DNA from: Acidimicrobiia bacterium
GTDB taxonomy: Bacteria > Actinomycetota > Acidimicrobiia > Spongiisociales > ZC4RG35
Reading direction: 5' to 3'
Assembly: GCA_015488325.1 (NCBI GenBank)
Contig: WFOA01000011.1
Coordinates: 1 to 40,117 of the forward strand
Length of the DNA: 40,117 nucleotides
Position numbers and translations under genes: made by a program. Positions 29,551 to 38,293 of the stretch are shown piece after piece (position 1 is the stretch's first letter; each line of letters begins with the position of its first letter). The notes under the pieces are model-generated. The model had not been told where the DNA came from, ran no database searches, and worked only from the letters and a program-made list of their open reading frames with translations.

Positions 29551-30315
29551 CTACTTGGGTTGCATCCTGATCCCGCCGTCCATCCTGATGGTCTCGGCGT
29601 TCATGTAGTCGTGGGTGAGCAGCAGACAGGCGAGCTCCGCGTACTCGTCGGGACGGCCGAGACGGCGGGGGAACAGGACCTGGCCGCCCAGGGACTGGCG
29701 GGCAGGCTCGGGGAGGCCGGCGAGCAGCGGCGTGTCGATGATGCCTGGAGCGATCGTGTTCACCCGGATGCCCACCGAGGCGAGATCCCGGGCGATGGGC
29801 AGCGTCATCCCCACGATCCCGGCCTTCGACGCCGAGTAGGCCGCCTGGCCGATCTGGCCGTCGAACGCCGCCACCGAGGCGGTGTTGACGATCGCGCCCC
29901 GGCTGCCGTCGGGGTCGACGGGTTCGGTCTTCGCCATCTCCGCCGCCGCCAGCCGGATGCAGTTGAAGGTCCCGGTGAGGTTCACCCGGATGACGGTCTC
30001 GTAGTGGCCGAGGTCGTGGGGTGTCCCGTCCCGGGAGAGGGTCCGGGCCGGTGGGCCGATCCCGGCGCAGTTCACCAGGGCCCGCAGCGGTCCCATCTCG
30101 ACCGCCGCCGCCACCGCCACCGCGACCTGGTCGGCGTCGGTGACGTCGGCATGCACGTAGGCTCCGTCGACTTCGGCGGCGACCGCCTCGCCTTTGTCGT
30201 CCGCCAGATCCACGATCACCACCCGTGCGCCTTCGGCCGCGAGACGCCGGACGGTGGCCGCCCCCAACCCCGAGGCACCGCCGGTGACGATCGCCGAAAC
30301 ACCTGCCAGATCCAC
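29551..30315 (-). CDS. SDR, type II 3-hydroxyacyl-CoA dehydrogenase-like (HSD17B10-like)
   Basis: A 254-residue short-chain dehydrogenase. It starts [22 protein letters not shown] and shows [11 protein letters not shown] (Asp at the end of strand two, NAD preference), [37 protein letters not shown] (in two parts: [13 protein letters not shown] and [10 protein letters not shown]) and [10 protein letters not shown]. The GPP insert after NCAGI and the [14 protein letters not shown] stretch resemble the HSD17B10/type II HADH group, which oxidises (S)-3-hydroxyacyl-CoA and some steroids. The GTG at 30315 is set by AGGAGG seven bases upstream. It is divergent from murI. Its context among acyl-CoA enzymes agrees with beta-oxidation. 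Confidence 0.88.
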
Positions 30316-30369: not shown

Positions 30370-31179
30370 ATGATCGGCGTCTTCGACTCGGGAATCGGTG
30401 GTCTGTCGGTGCTCATGCCCGTCCGGCGACTCCTCGGCGACGCCGACATCCTGTACCTCGCCGACCGGGGCTGGGGACCGTACGGCGAGCGAAGCCTGGA
30501 GGATGTCCGGGCGCGGGTCGACCTGGTCGCCTCCCATCTCATCTCCCAGGGCGCCCGGATGGTCGTCGTGGCCTGTCACACCGCGTCGGCCGCCGCCTTG
30601 ACGACCCTCCGGGCCCGACATCCCGACGTCGCCTTCGTCGGGATGGAGCCGGCCCTCAAGCCTGCGGCGGCCGCCAGCCGGAAACGGCGGGTCGGCGTCC
30701 TGGCCACCGAAGCGACCTTTCAGAGCGAGCTGTTCGCCTCGGTGGTCGACCGTTTCGGGACGAACGTCGCGGTGATCGCCCGGGCATGCCGCGGCTGGGC
30801 GGCGGCGGTGGAAGAGGGACACCTCGACGGACCCGAGGTGGAGGCGATGGTCGGTGAGCACGTCGTCCCCCTCCTCGCCCACCGGGTCGACACGATCGTC
30901 CTCGGCTGCACCCACTACCCCTTCTTGGCGCCGGTGATCCGACGGATCGCCGGACCCGACATCGAGATCGTCGACCCGGCCGACGCCGTCGCCCGGCAGG
31001 TGGCCCGCGTCGCCGGCGGCCTCGGCCCCGAGGTGGGCCGCGGCCGCGCCCTCCGATTCCAGGTGACAGGCGCCCCGACCGGCGTCGCCGAACTGGTGGA
31101 GCGGCTCACCGGGTGGCGGATCGACGTCGAAGGGGTCCGGGTGGGACCCCCCCTGGGCCCGGTACCCTCCGACCCGTGA
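30370..31179 (+). CDS. murI: Glutamate racemase, variant active-site loop
   Basis: A 269-residue amino-acid racemase expected to make D-glutamate for peptidoglycan. It keeps [10 protein letters not shown] (5-14), PYGERS (37-42), the first catalytic cysteine (Cys69 in ACHTAS) and the second in GCTHYPFL (Cys180, His182). Two deviations are clear: the near-invariant Asn after the first cysteine (CNTAS) is His70, and the usual DTARVPYG loop reads DRGWGPYG. The codon for residue 70 is CAC. Substrate carboxylate contacts may therefore differ. The start ATG at 30370 follows a CATACT box. It overlaps the next gene by four bases (GTGA), forming a murI-merR-menF unit. Confidence 0.88.
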
Positions 31180-31694
31180 CCGACGACCGACCCCTCGACC
31201 CTTGGGACCGGGCGCTGCTCGACGCCCTCGACCAGCCCTTCGTCGACGACGACCGGCCCGGCGACCCTCTGACCTTGGACGAGCTGGCAGAACGTACCGG
31301 AATCTCCCCGGTGCTCCTCGAGATGCTCGCCCGGGAAGGGTTCCTCGTCGCCCGATCCCAGGATCCCGAACCGCGGTACGACCCCGCGGATGCCGACGCC
31401 GTCGCCGCCGGTTTCGAGCTCGTCGAAGCCGGGCTGCCCCTCGCCGAACTCCTCGACCTCGCCCGCCGCACCGACGAAGCCATGCGGCCCATCGCCGCCC
31501 AGGCGGTGGAGGTGTTCGCCCGGTTCGTCCGCGACTCGGTGGAGGCGACGGCCTCCTCGGAGGAGGAGGCGGCCCGTCGGCTCGTGGAGGCCTTCCGCCG
31601 GATGCTGCCGGCGACCGGCCGGCTGGTCGGCCACCATTTCCGTACGTTGCTGGTCGCCGAGGCCCACCGCCGCCTGGCGGGTGAGGAACGATGA
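31176..31694 (+). CDS. MerR-like helix-turn-helix protein
   Basis: A 172-residue protein. Residues about 25-70 read as a MerR-type winged helix ([20 protein letters not shown], then [20 protein letters not shown]), where the second part resembles the wing with R-Y before D-A-D. The remaining 100 residues are helical with a clear run of Ala and Glu, probably a dimerisation or ligand domain. I do not know a specific homologue. The GTG start overlaps the murI stop, and the stop overlaps the menF ATG (ATGA), so it is translationally coupled on both sides. It could regulate this operon, which is inference. Confidence 0.72.
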
Positions 31695-32905
31695 CGATCC
31701 TCCGAGTGGTGACCCGCCCCATCGACTGTCCCGTCCCCCTCCTCGACCACGTGCCGTCGGTCGTGTGGATGACCGAGGACCGAGCCATGGTGGGGTTCGG
31801 CGAGGCGCTCCGCATCGATCCGGGACGGGGCGACGACCGGTTCGACACGGCAGCCGACAGGTGGGACGAGGTCGTGGCCGCGGCCGACGTGGACGACCGT
31901 GTCGGCCTGGAGGGGACGGGGCTGGTGGCGTTCGGGAGCTTCAGCTTCGACCCGTCGTCGGGAGGGTCCAGCCTGCTCGTCCCCGAGGTGACCGTCGGCC
32001 GCCAGGGCGACCGATGGTGGGTCACCGAGATCGACGGCGTCCCGGCCGACCGCTACCTGCACCCTTCCCCCACGACGCCGCGGCCCCTCGACCGGCCCCG
32101 GTACGCCGGCTCTTCGATGCCGGATCTGCTCTGGATCGAGGCCGTGGCCGAAGCGATCGAGAGGATCGGAGCCGGGGAGGTGGAGAAGGTGGTCTTGGCT
32201 CGGGACCTGGCGGTCTGGTCGAAGGTCCCCTTCGATCCGCGCCTGCTCATCGAACGGCTCCACCGGCGTTTCCCGTCCTGTTTCACCTTTCTGGTCGACG
32301 GTCTGGTGGGGGCCAGCCCCGAGCTGCTGGTCCGTCGCCGCGGCCTGACCGTCGAATCGGTCCCCCTCGCCGGGTCGGCCCCGCGGGCCGACGACCCCGA
32401 CGCCGACGAGCTGCTCGGCAAGGAACTCATCGGCTCCGACAAGAACCGACGAGAACACGAAGCCGCCGCCGCCTCGGTCGGCCGGGTCCTGGGGGAGCTC
32501 TGCGCGACCCTGCATCGTGACGTCGAACCTTGGCTCCTGGAACTGGCGAACGTCCGTCATCTCGCCACCCGGTTCGAAGGCCGTCTCACCGGATGGATCT
32601 CCTCGCTGCGGATCGCCGGGCGCCTCCACCCCACCGCGGCCGTCGGTGGCACTCCCACCGACGTGGCCGTGGACCTGATCCGACGCCTGGAGGGAATGGA
32701 CCGAGGACGCTACGCCGGACCTGTCGGCTGGGTGGACGCCCACGGTGACGGAGAATGGGCGATCGCCCTCCGCTGCGCGGAGCTGTCCGGGGCGAGGGCC
32801 CGACTGTTCGCCGGCGCCGGGATCGTCGCCGGCTCCCTGCCCGAGTCCGAGCTGGAGGAGACCCGGCTCAAGCTTCGGGCGATGATGGGCGCCCTGGAGC
32901 CCTGA
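31691..32905 (+). CDS. menF: Isochorismate synthase
   Basis: A 404-residue chorismate-using enzyme that converts chorismate to isochorismate, the first step of menaquinone synthesis. The C-terminal chorismate-binding domain shows [54 protein letters not shown] and AIALRCAEL, with the acidic metal-binding Glu of [10 protein letters not shown]-x-PESELEE. The N-terminus is poorly conserved, as usual. The same fold is used by anthranilate and salicylate enzymes, but the facing menD and menC genes favour MenF. The last 38 bases overlap the 3' end of menD on the other strand. Confidence 0.93.
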
Positions 32906-34613
32906 GACGGTCCTCCAGCCACCGGTCCAACGCCTCCCGGGCCACCGCCTCGAGTTGGAGGTGGACCTCGACGTTGCTTCGACGGTCGGTGACCACCTCG
33001 ACGATCTGGGTCCCGCCTTCCGCGAAGGCGGCTTCCACCGCCTCGACGGTGGCTCCCGGGGCGTCGATTGAACGGTGGCCGAGCCCGTACAGGTGGGCCA
33101 GGACGCGGAAGGAGCGGCCGTGGGGCGTCCCGAACAGCTCCTCGAAATGCTCCGGGAAGCGGGCCTGTGGGAGGAACGAGAAGATCCCACCTCCGTCGTT
33201 GTTGACGACGACGAAGACGGCGGCCGGTCGGGGCTCGACGAGGAACCCGGAGGCGTCGTGGAGCATCGCCAGGTCACCGGCCAGCCCCACGGTGCGTCCC
33301 TCGTGAGCCGCGGCCACCCCCAACACGGTCGACACGAACCCGTCGATGCCCGAAGCACCCCGGTTGGCGTGGATCCGCACCGGGCCCGGCACCATGAACC
33401 GGTCGAGGTCCCGCACCGGCATCGACGACGCCACCACCAGCCGGTCCCCTCCCCCCAGGGAAGCGCCGACGTCGCGGGCGACCCGCGGTTCGGTCGGCCG
33501 GTCGAAGGTGTCCAAGGCGGCGTCGAGACTGCGGCGGACCACCCGCTCCGCCTCCAGCCAACTGCGCCGCCACCCACCCCGACGGGGAGGCACCGGGAGG
33601 GCCACCTCCGGGAGCCCGGTCACCATCCGGACGGCACGACGGCCGGGATCGGGCCATCCCCAAGGGTCGGCGACCACCACCTCACTCTGCGCCATCACCG
33701 CGGCGACATGCCGGTCGAGGACGGCCCGGCCGACGACCAGCACCGCCTCGGGCCGGTGAGTTTCGACGAAACCGGGGTGAGCGAGGAGATGGGACGCCGT
33801 CGTGATGGTCTGTGCCGGACGGGCCCCCAGGGTCGGTTCGGCGACGAGCGGCCAACCGAGGCGGGCGGCGACCTCGTCGACGACCGTCGCCGCTCCGGGG
33901 ACCGGACCGAGGTCGCCTACCACCACGAGGCCCCGGTCGACGGCGACGAACTCCCGAGGGAGGGCGACGACGGGGATCGGCGGCGACGCGTGGGCGGTCC
34001 AGGGCCGGCCGTCCGCCCTGCCCGCCGTCGGCGAAGAGAACACCTCGGCCACGGTCCGTCCGTCGTCGGTGAGCGGCACCAGAGGTTCCCGGAAGGCGAG
34101 GTCGAGGTGGACGGGGCCGGGAAGGGAGCCCGTCGTCTCGGCGACTGCCCTGCAGATGGCCGACCGCCACCAGGCGTTCGCTTCGGGCCGGTCCTCGGCC
34201 GGCCCGAGGACGGTGGACCACCGCACCGACCTCCCGAACAACCACCGCTGGTCGATCGTCTGATTCGCCCCCACGTCGTGGAGTTCGGGTGGGCGGTCGG
34301 CGGTCAACGCCACGAGCGGCACCCTGCCCGAATCGGCTTCGACGATCGCCGGATGCAGATTCACCGCCGCCGTCCCCGACGTGGTCAGAACCGCCGCCGG
34401 GCGGCCCGTCTCCCGGCCGATCCCGAGCGCGAAGAAGCCTGCCGACCGTTCGTCGACCTCGACGTGGAGTTCGGCGTCGGCGTGGGCGGCGACCGCCAAC
34501 GCCAGGGGCGCCGACCGTGACCCCGGCGCGACCACGAAACGGACGACACCGTTGCGAACCAGCTCGTCCACCACCACGGCGGCGAGGGCGGTGGAGGGGT
34601 TGGGGTGGCTCAT
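32868..34613 (-). CDS. menD: SEPHCHC synthase (MenD)
   Basis: A 581-residue thiamin-diphosphate enzyme joining isochorismate and 2-oxoglutarate-derived succinic semialdehyde. It has the N-terminal APGSRSAPLALA block, the ThDP-activating Glu in EVDERSAGFFALGIGR, TTSGTAAVNLHPA and GANQTIDQ, a Rossmann-like middle domain, and the ThDP/Mg region HANRGASGIDGFVST, LAGDLAMLHDASGF and VVVNNDGGGIFSFLPQ. It is coupled to menC by an ATGA overlap. The Gly/Ala-rich middle domain is longer than minimal forms but the length fits actinobacterial MenD. Confidence 0.95.
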   Translation of the reverse strand: MSHPNPSTALAAVVVDELVRNGVVRFVVAPGSRSAPLALAVAAHADAELHVEVDERSAGFFALGIGRETGRPAAVLTTSGTAAVNLHPAIVEADSGRVPLVALTADRPPELHDVGANQTIDQRWLFGRSVRWSTVLGPAEDRPEANAWWRSAICRAVAETTGSLPGPVHLDLAFREPLVPLTDDGRTVAEVFSSPTAGRADGRPWTAHASPPIPVVALPREFVAVDRGLVVVGDLGPVPGAATVVDEVAARLGWPLVAEPTLGARPAQTITTASHLLAHPGFVETHRPEAVLVVGRAVLDRHVAAVMAQSEVVVADPWGWPDPGRRAVRMVTGLPEVALPVPPRRGGWRRSWLEAERVVRRSLDAALDTFDRPTEPRVARDVGASLGGGDRLVVASSMPVRDLDRFMVPGPVRIHANRGASGIDGFVSTVLGVAAAHEGRTVGLAGDLAMLHDASGFLVEPRPAAVFVVVNNDGGGIFSFLPQARFPEHFEELFGTPHGRSFRVLAHLYGLGHRSIDAPGATVEAVEAAFAEGGTQIVEVVTDRRSNVEVHLQLEAVAREALDRWLEDRLRAPGRPSSPEA

Positions 34614-35569
34614 CGACGCTCCAGGACCGCCGCCGCCTCCCGGATCCGCCTCAGCAGCGCTTCGGCGACGTCGGAGGGGGGACGCAGCGCCGCGAGACGG
34701 TCGGGGTCGGGTTCTGGTCGTCGCAGCTCGATCATCCCCCCGGAGGGTAGGAGCGGGTCGGAGACCACGTCGACGGCCAGCAGCGACGCGGTGGCGAGCC
34801 CGCAGGCGAACCGAAGCTCGGGCATCGCCGCCGCCGCCGCCAACCCGGCGGCGAGTCCCACCGAGGTCTCGAGGGCGGAGGAGATCACCACCGGCACACC
34901 GGATTCGGCCGCCAGCTTCAACACCGAGGCGACCCCGCCCAGGGGCTGCACCTTCAGGACCAGGACGTCGGCGGCCGCCCTCGCCACCACCTCGGCGGGG
35001 TCGTCGGCGGTCCGGATGCTTTCGTCGACCGCCACCGGTACGGGGATGCGGGGTCGCAGCCGGGCGAGCTCGTCGAGGGTGGCGCAGGGCTGTTCGACGT
35101 ATTCGAGGTCGAACACCGTCAAGGCGTCGATGTTCTTCGTCGCCTCGTCCACCGTCCAGGCACCGTTGACGTCGATGCGGAGACGTCCGTCGGGGCCCAG
35201 CGCCTCACGGACCGCCGCCACCCGGGCCCGATCCTCTTCGAACGAACCGCCGGGTTCGGCCACCTTCACCTTGGCGGTGCCACAACCCGAGGCCCTGACG
35301 ATGTCGGCGGCCTGGTCGGGTCCCACGGCGGGGACGGTCACGTTCACCGGGACCGCCCGCCGCCGGGCGGGGGGCCACGGTCGGTGGGCCGCCTCCAGGG
35401 TCGCTTCGAGCCACCGGGCCGTCACCGTCGGTGGATACTCGGGGAACGGTGAGAACTCTCCCCAGCCTGCAGGGCCGCGGACCAGCACGACGTCGCGGTG
35501 ATCCACCTGGCGGAACCGCACCGTCATCGGCACCCGTACCGGATGGAGTTCGAGCCCGTCCAACGTCAT
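34610..35569 (-). CDS. menC: o-Succinylbenzoate synthase (MenC)
   Basis: A 319-residue enolase-superfamily dehydratase making o-succinylbenzoate. The catalytic KVKVAEPG motif (Lys100 and Lys102), metal ligands Asp133 (RIDVNGAW), Glu159 (VEQPC) and Asp182 (VDESI), and the base Lys206 (LKVQPLGG) are all present. The N-terminal capping domain opens with the PVRVPMTVRF-like stretch. The ATG overlaps the stop of a small cytochrome c gene, and the stop overlaps menD, so the order is cytochrome, menC, menD with four-base overlaps at both joints. menB, menE and menA are not in this window. Confidence 0.94.
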   Translation of the reverse strand: MTLDGLELHPVRVPMTVRFRQVDHRDVVLVRGPAGWGEFSPFPEYPPTVTARWLEATLEAAHRPWPPARRRAVPVNVTVPAVGPDQAADIVRASGCGTAKVKVAEPGGSFEEDRARVAAVREALGPDGRLRIDVNGAWTVDEATKNIDALTVFDLEYVEQPCATLDELARLRPRIPVPVAVDESIRTADDPAEVVARAAADVLVLKVQPLGGVASVLKLAAESGVPVVISSALETSVGLAAGLAAAAAMPELRFACGLATASLLAVDVVSDPLLPSGGMIELRRPEPDPDRLAALRPPSDVAEALLRRIREAAAVLERR

Positions 35570-35868
35570 TGCTGCTCCCGCAGGTAGGCGATGACTCGCT
35601 CGACCTGCTCGTCGCTCAGGACGCCACCGAACCCTGGCATCCGTCCCCGGCCTCGGGTGATGGCGAGACGGAGGAACGCGTCGGGCCGTTCGGCGGAGAC
35701 CGAACCCGGGCCGAGGGCTGGCCCCAGGCCTCCGGAGAGGTCGGGGGCGTGGCAGCGGGCGCAGAGCTGCAGGTAGATCTCTTCCCCGGTGGCGTCCTCC
35801 GCCGGTACGCCCGTGCAGGACGCGGCGAACAGGGAGAGGACGAGGAACAGAGCCAACCGGGCACGCAC
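35566..35868 (-). CDS. Small c-type cytochrome lipoprotein
   Basis: A 100-residue monohaem cytochrome c. It starts VRARLALFLVLSLFAASCTG, with a lipobox (AASC, Cys18), so it should be a lipid-anchored extracytoplasmic protein. The haem site is CARCH (36-40) and the distal ligand is most likely Met77 in GRMPGFG. The C-terminal helix DEQVERVIAYLREQQ is typical of class I domains. The GTG at 35868 has a TAGCAT box seven bases upstream. It is cotranscribed with menC and menD, which connects quinone synthesis with electron transfer. The partner oxidase or reductase is not visible here. Confidence 0.88.
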   Translation of the reverse strand: MRARLALFLVLSLFAASCTGVPAEDATGEEIYLQLCARCHAPDLSGGLGPALGPGSVSAERPDAFLRLAITRGRGRMPGFGGVLSDEQVERVIAYLREQQ

Positions 35869-35875
35869 CGGCGGG

Positions 35876-35906
35876 ATGCTAGGCGGCCCCTGCGAGACGA
35901 TACGAT
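35876..35906. promoter_or_regulatory. Divergent leaderless-type promoters: cytochrome/men operon and MDMPI-like gene
   Basis: TAGCAT on the minus strand (35881-35876) is seven bases before the cytochrome GTG. TACGAT on the plus strand (35901-35906) is six bases before the MDMPI-like ATG. Both leave essentially no 5' leader. Confidence 0.5.
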
Positions 35907-35912
35907 GGGCCG

Positions 35913-36704
35913 ATGGATCCCCTCGCACGAGCCCTCGACATCGCCCTCACCCGTGCCGTGGAGCTGGCCTCGGAGCTCGACGACCGTTCCTGGCAGCTTC
36001 CGAGTCCGTTGCCTGGCTGGACGGTCGGCGACGTGGTCGCCCACCTGGCACATCTGGAGGGATTGACCAACGGCTTCGACCAGCCGGAGCCGCCGCCGTC
36101 CGAGCCGGAGCATCCCGACCCGCTGCACCGTTTCACCGAGAGCGGTGTGGCGGCACGGCGTGCACTCGACCGTCACCAGGTCGTCGCCGAGCTACGGGCG
36201 GCGACCGAGGCGACACGGGGCCGCCTGGGCACGGTCGTCGGGGAGGAATGGGACCGGCCCACGACGACGCTGGTCGGACCGGGGACACTCCGGCTTTCGA
36301 CCCAGATGCGGGTCGGCGACGTGTACGTCCATCTCCTCGACCTGGCCCACGCCCTCGGTCTCGACCCGGAGAAGGTCCGTCATCCCGAGCCGGAGGCGGT
36401 CATCGTCGGCCGGGCCGTCGAACTGGTGGGTTGGGCGATGGTGAAACGGGCCCACCTCGACGAGGGGACCCGGCTGCACCTGGAGCTGAAAGGGCCCGGT
36501 GGCGTCACCGGCGACTGGGCCGTGGTGGACGGTCGGGGAACGCGGGTCGGACCCGGCGAGGAGCCGGATGGAACCATCGTCGGGTCGGGGCTGGCCTTCG
36601 TGCTCACCGCCGGCGGGAGGGCCTGGCCGCCGGCGCTGTGCGAGCTGTCAGTCGCCGGCGCCCCCGCCGAACGCCTCATGGGGCGTTTCGCCCTCTTCGG
36701 GTGA
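35913..36704 (+). CDS. Maleylpyruvate isomerase-like (MDMPI/DinB fold) protein
   Basis: A 263-residue protein of the actinobacterial MDMPI group. The N-terminal DinB-like helical bundle opens LDDRSWQLPSPLPGWTVGD and VVAHLAHLEGLTNG, the usual P-G-W-T-V-x-D-V-x-x-H-L motif with metal-binding His. A second His-containing segment is QMRVGDVYVHLLDLAHALG. The C-terminal part (about 170-260) is a beta-rich SCP2/MDMPI_C-like domain. Family members are mycothiol-dependent isomerases or thiol transferases, but most are uncharacterised. The start follows TACGAT at leaderless spacing. Its 3' end overlaps the convergent guanylyltransferase gene by 57 bases. Confidence 0.85.
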   Translation: MDPLARALDIALTRAVELASELDDRSWQLPSPLPGWTVGDVVAHLAHLEGLTNGFDQPEPPPSEPEHPDPLHRFTESGVAARRALDRHQVVAELRAATEATRGRLGTVVGEEWDRPTTTLVGPGTLRLSTQMRVGDVYVHLLDLAHALGLDPEKVRHPEPEAVIVGRAVELVGWAMVKRAHLDEGTRLHLELKGPGGVTGDWAVVDGRGTRVGPGEEPDGTIVGSGLAFVLTAGGRAWPPALCELSVAGAPAERLMGRFALFG

Positions 36705-37769
36705 GGCGGCGGGTGGCCGTTCCACTTCGGGGCGCCCTTCGTCACGCAGCCGTTCCACCACCATCCGGACGTCCTGGGCCGCCTCGCGGTCGAGCACCAG
36801 CACGGCGTCGGCGGTCTCCACGACGACGACGTCGGTGAGGCCCACCACGGCCACGAGCCGCGACTCCGCCCGAACGTAGGAACGTTCGACACCGTGGAGG
36901 ACGACGTCTCCACGGGCCACGTTGCCCTGCGGATCCCGCGTCTCGATCTCCCAGAGCGCGTTCCACGAGCCGACGTCGGACCATCCCACGTCCATCGGCA
37001 CGACCTTCGCCCGGTCGGTGCGTTCCATGACCGCATAGTCGATCGAGATGGAGGGGGCGTCGCCGAACCGGGGCCCGAGGGTCGTCACCGTCCCCCCGTC
37101 GCCGTCGAGGGCCGCCTCGACCGCTCCGACGATCTCGGGGGCCAGACGACGGGCTTCGTCGAGGAGGGCGTCGGCCTGAAAGACGAACATGCCGCTGTTC
37201 CACAGGTACCGTCCCGATGCGAGATACGCCGCTGCCGTCTCCGGGTCCGGTTTCTCCACGAACGCCTCCACCGCCGTCACCCCTTCGTCGGCGTGACCCG
37301 CCGCCCGGATGTATCCGTATCCGGTCTCGGGCCTGGTCGGTTTGATCCCGAAGGTCACCAGCGACCCGTCGGCGGCCGCCGACACCGCACGCTCCACGGC
37401 TCGGTGGAATCCTTCGACGTCGACGATCACATGGTCGGCGGGCAGGATCAGGAGCACGTCGTCGGGGTCGGCCACCAGGGCCGCGGCCACCACCGCCGGG
37501 GCGGTGTTGCGACCTTCTGGTTCGGCGAGCACCCGGGTGGGTTCGACGCCGATCTCGGCGAGTTGGGTGACGATGGGTTCGACGTGGGCGTGGTTGCAGA
37601 CGACGAGGGGGGGTCGCACGTCTCTGAGACCCTGCAGCCGGCGAATCGTGGCCTGCACCATCGTCTCGTCGCCGAGGAGTCGCTGCAGCTGTTTCGGCGC
37701 CGACGCCCGAGACAGCGGCCAGAGCCGGGTACCGGAGCCTCCGCTCAGGAGGACGGGAACGATCGCCAT
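36648..37769 (-). CDS. manC: Mannose-1-phosphate guanylyltransferase
   Basis: A 373-residue nucleotidyltransferase producing GDP-mannose for glycan or glycolipid synthesis. Motifs are VLLSGGSGTRLWPLSR (pyrophosphorylase signature), PKQLQRLLG, LAEPEGRNTAPAV, LPADHVI, EKPD and WNSGMFVF. It lacks the C-terminal isomerase (cupin) half of bifunctional ManC enzymes, so it is the monofunctional short form. The ATG at 37769 follows TACGCT by seven bases; an upstream in-frame GTG (37793) lies ahead of that box. The tail after residue about 340 is Pro/Glu-rich and encoded over the 3' end of the MDMPI-like gene. Confidence 0.92.
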   Translation of the reverse strand: MAIVPVLLSGGSGTRLWPLSRASAPKQLQRLLGDETMVQATIRRLQGLRDVRPPLVVCNHAHVEPIVTQLAEIGVEPTRVLAEPEGRNTAPAVVAAALVADPDDVLLILPADHVIVDVEGFHRAVERAVSAAADGSLVTFGIKPTRPETGYGYIRAAGHADEGVTAVEAFVEKPDPETAAAYLASGRYLWNSGMFVFQADALLDEARRLAPEIVGAVEAALDGDGGTVTTLGPRFGDAPSISIDYAVMERTDRAKVVPMDVGWSDVGSWNALWEIETRDPQGNVARGDVVLHGVERSYVRAESRLVAVVGLTDVVVVETADAVLVLDREAAQDVRMVVERLRDEGRPEVERPPAASPEEGETPHEAFGGGAGD

Positions 37770-37776
37770 GCCCGCA

Positions 37777-37782
37777 AGCGTA
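37777..37782 (-). promoter_or_regulatory. Candidate -10 box of manC
   Basis: TACGCT on the minus strand, seven bases before the manC ATG, located just beyond the carbonic anhydrase stop codon; suggests a separate leaderless transcript. Confidence 0.45.
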
Positions 37783-37789
37783 CCGGCCG

Positions 37790-38293
37790 TCACCAGGCCG
37801 CCCGGTAGGCGGCCGCCAGCTCCTGGTAGTCGCGTACACCCTGGCGCTGGCGTTCGATCTCTTCGGCGCTGAGTTCACGCAACGGCCTCGCCGGTATCCC
37901 GGCGGCGAGGGTCCACGGGGGGATCTCCCGCCCTTCGGGGACCACGGCCCCCGCCGCCACCCAGGCCCCTTCGCCCACCACGGCCCGGTTGAGCACCCGG
38001 GCTCCGATCCCGATCAGACAGTCGTCGCCGACGACGGCACCGTGGATGACGGCGGCGTGGCCGACGATCACGCGGTCGCCGACGACGCAGGGGATCCCTT
38101 CGTCGCAGTGGAGCACCACGTTGTCCTGCAGGTTGGTCTCGGCACCGACGTCGATCCGGTCGAACTCGGCCCGGGCCACGACCCCGAACATGACGACGGC
38201 TCGTGGACCGATGCTGACCCGGCCACGGAGCACGGCGGTGGGAGCGATGTAGGCGGTCGGGTCGACGGTGGGGTCGGGGAGGGTGATGGTCAT
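37790..38293 (-). CDS. Gamma-carbonic anhydrase-like hexapeptide-repeat protein
   Basis: A 167-residue left-handed beta-helix protein. The zinc ligands of the family are present: His62 (VVLHCDEG), His79 (VGHAAV) and His84 (IHGAVVG). The R-A-E-F-D-R-I-x-V-G-x-x-T-N-L-Q-D-N segment stands where archaeal Cam has R-G-D, so the salt-bridge Asp is Glu here. Hexapeptide turns (I/V-G-x) continue to residue 125, followed by a C-terminal helix. It may hydrate CO2 or be a non-catalytic relative such as the PaaY/CaiE group. A TACCCT box lies nine bases before the ATG. Confidence 0.88.
   Translation of the reverse strand: MTITLPDPTVDPTAYIAPTAVLRGRVSIGPRAVVMFGVVARAEFDRIDVGAETNLQDNVVLHCDEGIPCVVGDRVIVGHAAVIHGAVVGDDCLIGIGARVLNRAVVGEGAWVAAGAVVPEGREIPPWTLAAGIPARPLRELSAEEIERQRQGVRDYQELAAAYRAAW

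Follow-up and report, generated by a model that had tools for sequence, protein, structure and literature searches.

The window, a 40,117-nt stretch of contig WFOA01000011.1 from an Acidimicrobiia bacterium, carries a gene for a small c-type cytochrome followed on the same strand by menC and menD, with menF on the opposite strand running towards menD (Table 1). MenC, MenD and the isochorismate synthase all score above the cut-offs of their curated models. On the minus strand, the cytochrome stop and menC start overlap as ATGA, as do the menC stop and menD start, and the convergent 3' ends of menF and menD share 38 bp. The junction sequences confirm these overlaps, which an earlier note on this DNA had pointed out. 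That note also spoke of genes "fused into one overlapping operon"; the genes do overlap, but "fused" is too strong a word, as the proteins are separate.

Table 1 Genes and features around the cytochrome gene, with positions in the window
Feature	Position	Strand	Basis or remark
SDR oxidoreductase	29551-30315	-	PF00106 164.7 bits
murI, glutamate racemase	30370-31179	+	TIGR00067 168.5 bits, cut-off 146.65
MerR-like gene before menF	31113-31694	+	PF13411 18.6 bits, under the cut-off of 21.6; synteny
menF, isochorismate synthase	31691-32905	+	TIGR00543 264.7 bits, cut-off 224.75
menD, SEPHCHC synthase	32868-34613	-	TIGR00173 391.6 bits, cut-off 244.2
menC, o-succinylbenzoate synthase	34610-35569	-	NF002782 405.7 bits, cut-off 288
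Small class I cytochrome c lipoprotein, GTG start	35566-35868	-	Lipobox AASC, CARCH, Met77
-10-like TAGCAT hexamer, 7 nt ahead of the GTG of the cytochrome gene	35876-35881	-	May mark a leaderless start; shared by sister genome G001
MDMPI-domain gene, divergent, lying between manC and cytochrome	35913-36704	+	TIGR03083 69.7 bits, cut-off 50
manC, mannose-1-phosphate guanylyltransferase	36648-37793	-	TIGR01479 429.3 bits, cut-off 372.95

The cytochrome gene encodes a lipoprotein-like monohaem protein of 100 amino acids. Its matches to PF13442 (58.2 bits, cut-off 27) and PF00034 (30.3 bits, cut-off 21.3) assign it to the class I small cytochromes c, and C36, C39, H40 and M77, which make up the CxxCH motif and the distal Met, are invariant among 30 aligned members from the family of the window genome (hereafter f1). 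The AlphaFold model (mean pLDDT 91.0) has a class I cytochrome fold, for which Foldseek returned B. pasteurii c-553 (PDB 1c75) as the nearest small solved fold, with an E value of 7.6e-5 and 31% identity, together with cytochrome domains of NirN and cd1 nitrite reductase. Against the NCBIfam model of cytochrome c551 (NF045774), the protein scores 43.7 bits, below the cut-off of 118. With a relaxed pattern and chosen start codons, a lipobox-like motif precedes the haem site in 32 of 32 f1 genomes; together with the CARCH and AASC motifs it agrees with the lipid-anchored monohaem cytochrome described earlier, the signal peptide and lipid anchor being predicted. That the cytochrome takes part in the biosynthetic chemistry of MenC or MenD was set aside on general grounds, because the MenC reaction is a dehydration and the MenD reaction a ThDP-dependent addition, neither of which is a redox step.

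MenC was searched for in 33 further f1 genomes and is present in 31. Two genomes were left out as untestable: G004, which is 78% complete and in which neither menC nor menD was found, and G027, whose menD sits at one end of a 4,970-bp contig. In all 32 testable f1 genomes, the source genome included, the gene immediately preceding menC encodes a CxxCH motif and a lipobox-like motif, and a chance overlap of the genes is ruled out by this conservation. The 4-nt overlap between the cytochrome gene and menC is kept in 27 of these 32 genomes, while in five genomes, of genus g10, the two genes are 17 nt apart; menC and menD overlap by 4 nt in 27 of 31. Of 16 other f1 loci measured, 11 have overlapping menF and menD ends, and in the other five these ends are separated by 24 to 1,483 bp. 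On the far side, the distance from the end of manC to the cytochrome gene downstream of it is at most 51 bp in 29 of 32 f1 genomes. The cytochrome is therefore not always the first gene of the operon, which the earlier note had taken it to be, although in the window the MDMPI-domain gene does intervene. This separation was seen only in the source genome, and no homologue of the MDMPI gene was found in 23 f1 loci searched; two other genomes have manC-cytochrome gaps of 310 and 761 bp.

Outside f1, no CxxCH ORF was found in the 1.5 kb upstream of menC at any of 80 loci, a few of which end sooner. These comprised 20 loci from other families of the class and the 60 non-f1 loci among 80 public menC loci; the remaining 20 public loci belong to f1 and have the cytochrome. 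The arrangement is thus unusual, as the earlier note had suspected, and the finding it had named as refuting, a cytochrome gene missing before menC in every relative, was not borne out. The adjacency of menC and menD and the convergence of menF occur more widely than f1. In full-text literature searches, no description of a cytochrome gene before menC appeared in titles or abstract openings.

The cytochrome itself is more widespread than its men neighbours. A profile of the f1 cytochrome matches 54 of 60 relatives at E<=1e-12 and 74 of 296 genomes of the class at E<=1e-25, and at the latter threshold the only matches outside the order are in family f12 (14 genomes). Orthology was taken from the best-scoring match per genome together with synteny; the profile matched in 32 f1 genomes, 31 of which, the source among them, have a single match at E<=1e-12, and G001 has a weak second one. 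A tree of 84 columns does not resolve f1 as one group. At all four loci of family f3 and all five of f5, the cytochrome gene lies tail to tail with murI, with the SDR gene alongside. At the four f4 loci a PF06695 gene is nearby; two of them also have the SDR gene, and no murI was seen. In f6 it adjoins an acyl-CoA ligase and small ORFs, the sole ligase checked scoring below the AcsA cut-off. In f2 and f7 it precedes trpC, and the gene on its other side is that of a sensor kinase or a different one; model checks of trpC and trpB covered L194 only, the others being identified by eye, and in L192, L194-L196, L199-L203 and L210-L212 the cytochrome gene stands before trpC in an apparent trp operon. 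In f12, whose genomes are of about 1 Mb with 31-33% G+C in the loci, it lies between malQ and a gene for a PopT-like transporter (model-checked in L204). The sequence of the cytochrome is thus kept in six other families of the order (f2-f7) and in f12, and its men neighbours are not. Since the neighbours vary by family, trpC being one example, a position of the cytochrome before a biosynthetic gene is not peculiar to menaquinone. Family ZC4RG35 is placed in order UBA5794 in PMC12008989, the title of which gives UBA5794 as the sister order of Ca. Actinomarinales; the word "menaquinone" has 0 occurrences there. We infer that f1 belongs to UBA5794 and f12 to Actinomarinales.

The comparison of gene orders points to an insertion. 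The f1 order is SDR(-) murI(+) menF(+)><menD(-) menC(-) cytochrome(-) manC(-), with a merR(+) before menF that is not found in all loci, and this order minus merR-menF-menD-menC is the f3 order. SDR, murI and the cytochrome gene are contiguous in f3 and f5, and the f1 men block lies exactly between murI and the cytochrome gene, with the MerR-like gene forming part of the inserted block in several f1 genera. In f2-f8, menD, mostly convergent with menF, is found at another locus, with menB-, menA- and menH-like ORFs (by eye) nearby in most. The remaining pathway genes were examined in one f1 genome, the source, where menE(-), menB(+) and menA(+) all lie on contig C28, away from the cytochrome gene, menC and menD; they were model-checked, menE remaining under its cut-off. 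This locus resembles the men locus of the sister families without menD and menF.

Phylogenies, which were quick, single-matrix searches, differ in what they say for the three enzymes. In the MenD tree, f1 groups with L142 and L175, both titled Nitriliruptoraceae, and with L110 (Actinomycetota bacterium) at an SH-aLRT of 97, and a single MenD clade of f1 and f2-f8 is rejected (p-AU 0.0045, or 0.0015 without two aberrant f6 rows); the MenD phylogeny hence conflicts with the taxonomy in the manner expected of horizontal acquisition. For MenF, p-AU was 0.029 and f1 is split, with 7 of 15 rows by Nitriliruptoria and 8 not. The MenC tree, with a p-AU of 0.685 for f1 with other Acidimicrobiia, does not discriminate between origins. 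In tblastn searches with the source proteins, the best score of menD was 500 bits to L142 vs 290 in f2-f8, and that of menF was 413 bits in the Nitriliruptoria-like set vs 223 in f2-f8, whereas menA (330 bits) and menE (327 bits) scored best in f2-f8, with <=195 and <=176 bits elsewhere; the scores agree with a mosaic pathway because the two pairs find their best matches in different lineages. The menC gene gave 328 bits in the Nitriliruptoria-like set, 325 in Actinomycetes and no match in f2-f8, and the menB scores (507, 505 and 459 bits) do not place that gene.

Two known arrangements can be set beside the window. The Nitriliruptoria-like men clusters (L142, L113) share its menC-menD><menF order and are where its MenD, MenF and MenC score best; they have menB and menA before menC (by eye), in the place taken by the cytochrome gene in the window. 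The men clusters of f2-f8 share the menD><menF convergence in most cases, and the menE and menA of the source are closest to theirs, but they have neither cytochrome nor menC beside menD, and their MenD and MenF are of another lineage. In nearly all f2-f8 genomes (L039-L055), menD and menF are present and a strong MenC match is missing: at E<=1e-40 to NF002782, only G149 and G266 pass among the f2-f8 genomes listed, and the others give just weak enolase-superfamily matches. These families may use a divergent or unrelated o-succinylbenzoate synthase.

The explanation that we consider best is that a foreign menF-menD-menC block, with a Nitriliruptoria-like actinobacterium as its most likely donor, was probably inserted between murI and a cytochrome gene that was already resident. 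The start of menC would have landed on the stop codon of the cytochrome gene, so that menC and menD, neither of which has its own promoter-like motif, would be read from the promoter of the cytochrome gene or of manC; menE, menB and menA would have remained at the old men locus, giving a mosaic pathway. Together with a role of the cytochrome as a CccB-like shuttle, taken up below, we give this whole reading a probability of about 0.68. Against it, loss of the block from f3 and f5 would leave an identical junction. The f1 order could be ancestral, with f2-f8 having lost menF-menD-menC from between murI and the cytochrome gene and gained another menD><menF pair. That f2-f8 MenD is set apart from other Acidimicrobiia in the MenD tree, and that strong MenC matches are nearly absent from these families, would fit such a history; it nevertheless requires replacement in all sister families, leaves the best matches of the source menE and menA in those same families, with the same menE/menB-menA order, and has to accommodate a murI that meets the cytochrome gene in two of them. 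We regard it as unlikely.

The strict conservation of the adjacency might instead reflect selection for a joint operon, if the carrier of a menaquinol chain and the supply of menaquinone must match. The adjacency in 32 of 32 f1 genomes and the 4-nt overlap in most of them favour this idea, but unrelated neighbours are kept just as strictly. In a set of 23 loci, menC and the cytochrome gene stay together in 22 of the 22 loci holding both, and so do SDR and murI (13 of 13), murI and menF (14 of 14) and the cytochrome gene and manC (22 of 22). Adjacency alone therefore does not demonstrate functional coupling, since manC, murI and SDR are kept as strictly. The earlier note had seen in the neighbourhood a hint of a dedicated menaquinol-linked role; the context does not support this, given equally conserved unrelated neighbours and a cytochrome that does without men neighbours in f2-f7 and f12.

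The distribution of promoter-like motifs is the other observation that favours coupling, and it tells more than the adjacency does. A -10-like TANNNT hexamer close before a start codon is a motif of leaderless transcription, and it was sought 4-10 nt before candidate start codons, where about 0.005 occurrences per start are expected by chance; each cytochrome gene has 1 to 6 such starts. The hexamer was found before the cytochrome gene in 12 of 29 f1 genomes, among them that of the window, and in 15 of 17 f1 loci before manC, but before menC in only 1 of 32 and before menD in 0 of 31. Because promoter-like motifs are found there and hardly any at menC and menD, the latter two probably need a transcript that begins at the cytochrome gene or manC, and such a shared transcript would be a real coupling of expression. 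Even so, with the sister-family cytochrome beside trpC, murI or an acyl-CoA ligase, and with menE-menB-menA at another locus, selection for a matched operon seems rather doubtful. We give equally little credence to a lineage-wide operon that ties the dose of the shuttle to menaquinone synthesis, in which the cytochrome would be translationally coupled to menC and menD and the arrangement fixed after a foreign block had landed; if it were true, the levels of electron carrier and quinone would change together. Within the window, 18 gene starts were examined, and 8 of them have a TANNNT 6-10 nt upstream, which would fit frequent leaderless transcription in the lineage.

The source genome also encodes candidate partners for the cytochrome. 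On contig C12, a gene of the cytochrome b6 type is grouped with an ORF that looks Rieske-like by eye and with the gene of a two-haem protein; this places a candidate for the bc complex whose location the earlier note had asked for. Contig C91 has a caa3-type oxidase whose subunit II (CoxB) ORF contains a haem c motif near its end. The two-haem protein of the bc locus (L225:2476-4194, minus strand) has 572 aa; between its two CxxCH motifs runs a long segment whose DTDGDGLSD-like repeats resemble calcium-binding repeats, and it has no NCBIfam match at E<=1e-20. A further protein, L003:3-1073 (plus strand) on contig C85, contains two nearly identical tandem cytochrome c domains.

The small Bacillus cytochromes CccB/c551 and CccA/c550, together with c-553 (1c75), share with the window protein a class I fold, a haem domain of about 70-75 residues and a membrane anchor, which in CccB is a lipid, and they too operate in cells that use menaquinone and have both a bc complex and a caa3 oxidase. 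They differ from it in sequence, as the identity to 1c75 and the c551 score given above indicate, and in that the window gene sits with menC and menD. A Bacillus supercomplex provides a precedent for a cytochrome shuttle from bc to caa3, as presented in PMC9145763. Given the class I fold near c-553, a b6-type complex and a caa3-type oxidase in the genome, and this precedent, the cytochrome probably works in the manner of CccB/CccA, carrying electrons from a b6-type menaquinol:cytochrome c complex to the caa3-type oxidase. Electrons might instead go to a periplasmic reductase such as nitrous oxide reductase. An ORF resembling NosZ by eye does lie close to a different cytochrome c match of the source genome (L004, contig C150), and there are the Foldseek matches to NirN and cd1 nitrite reductase, but this route is very improbable in view of the presence of the cytochrome in 54 of 60 relatives and of the NosZ-like locus having its own cytochrome match.

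This case shows how a striking, strictly conserved operon can look functional when the landing site of a gene block explains it better, and it cautions against inferring a redox link from this neighbourhood of cytochrome and men genes. The small cytochrome family of one acidimicrobial order and f12 is, at the same time, a candidate for a Bacillus-like bc-to-caa3 shuttle in Actinobacteria.
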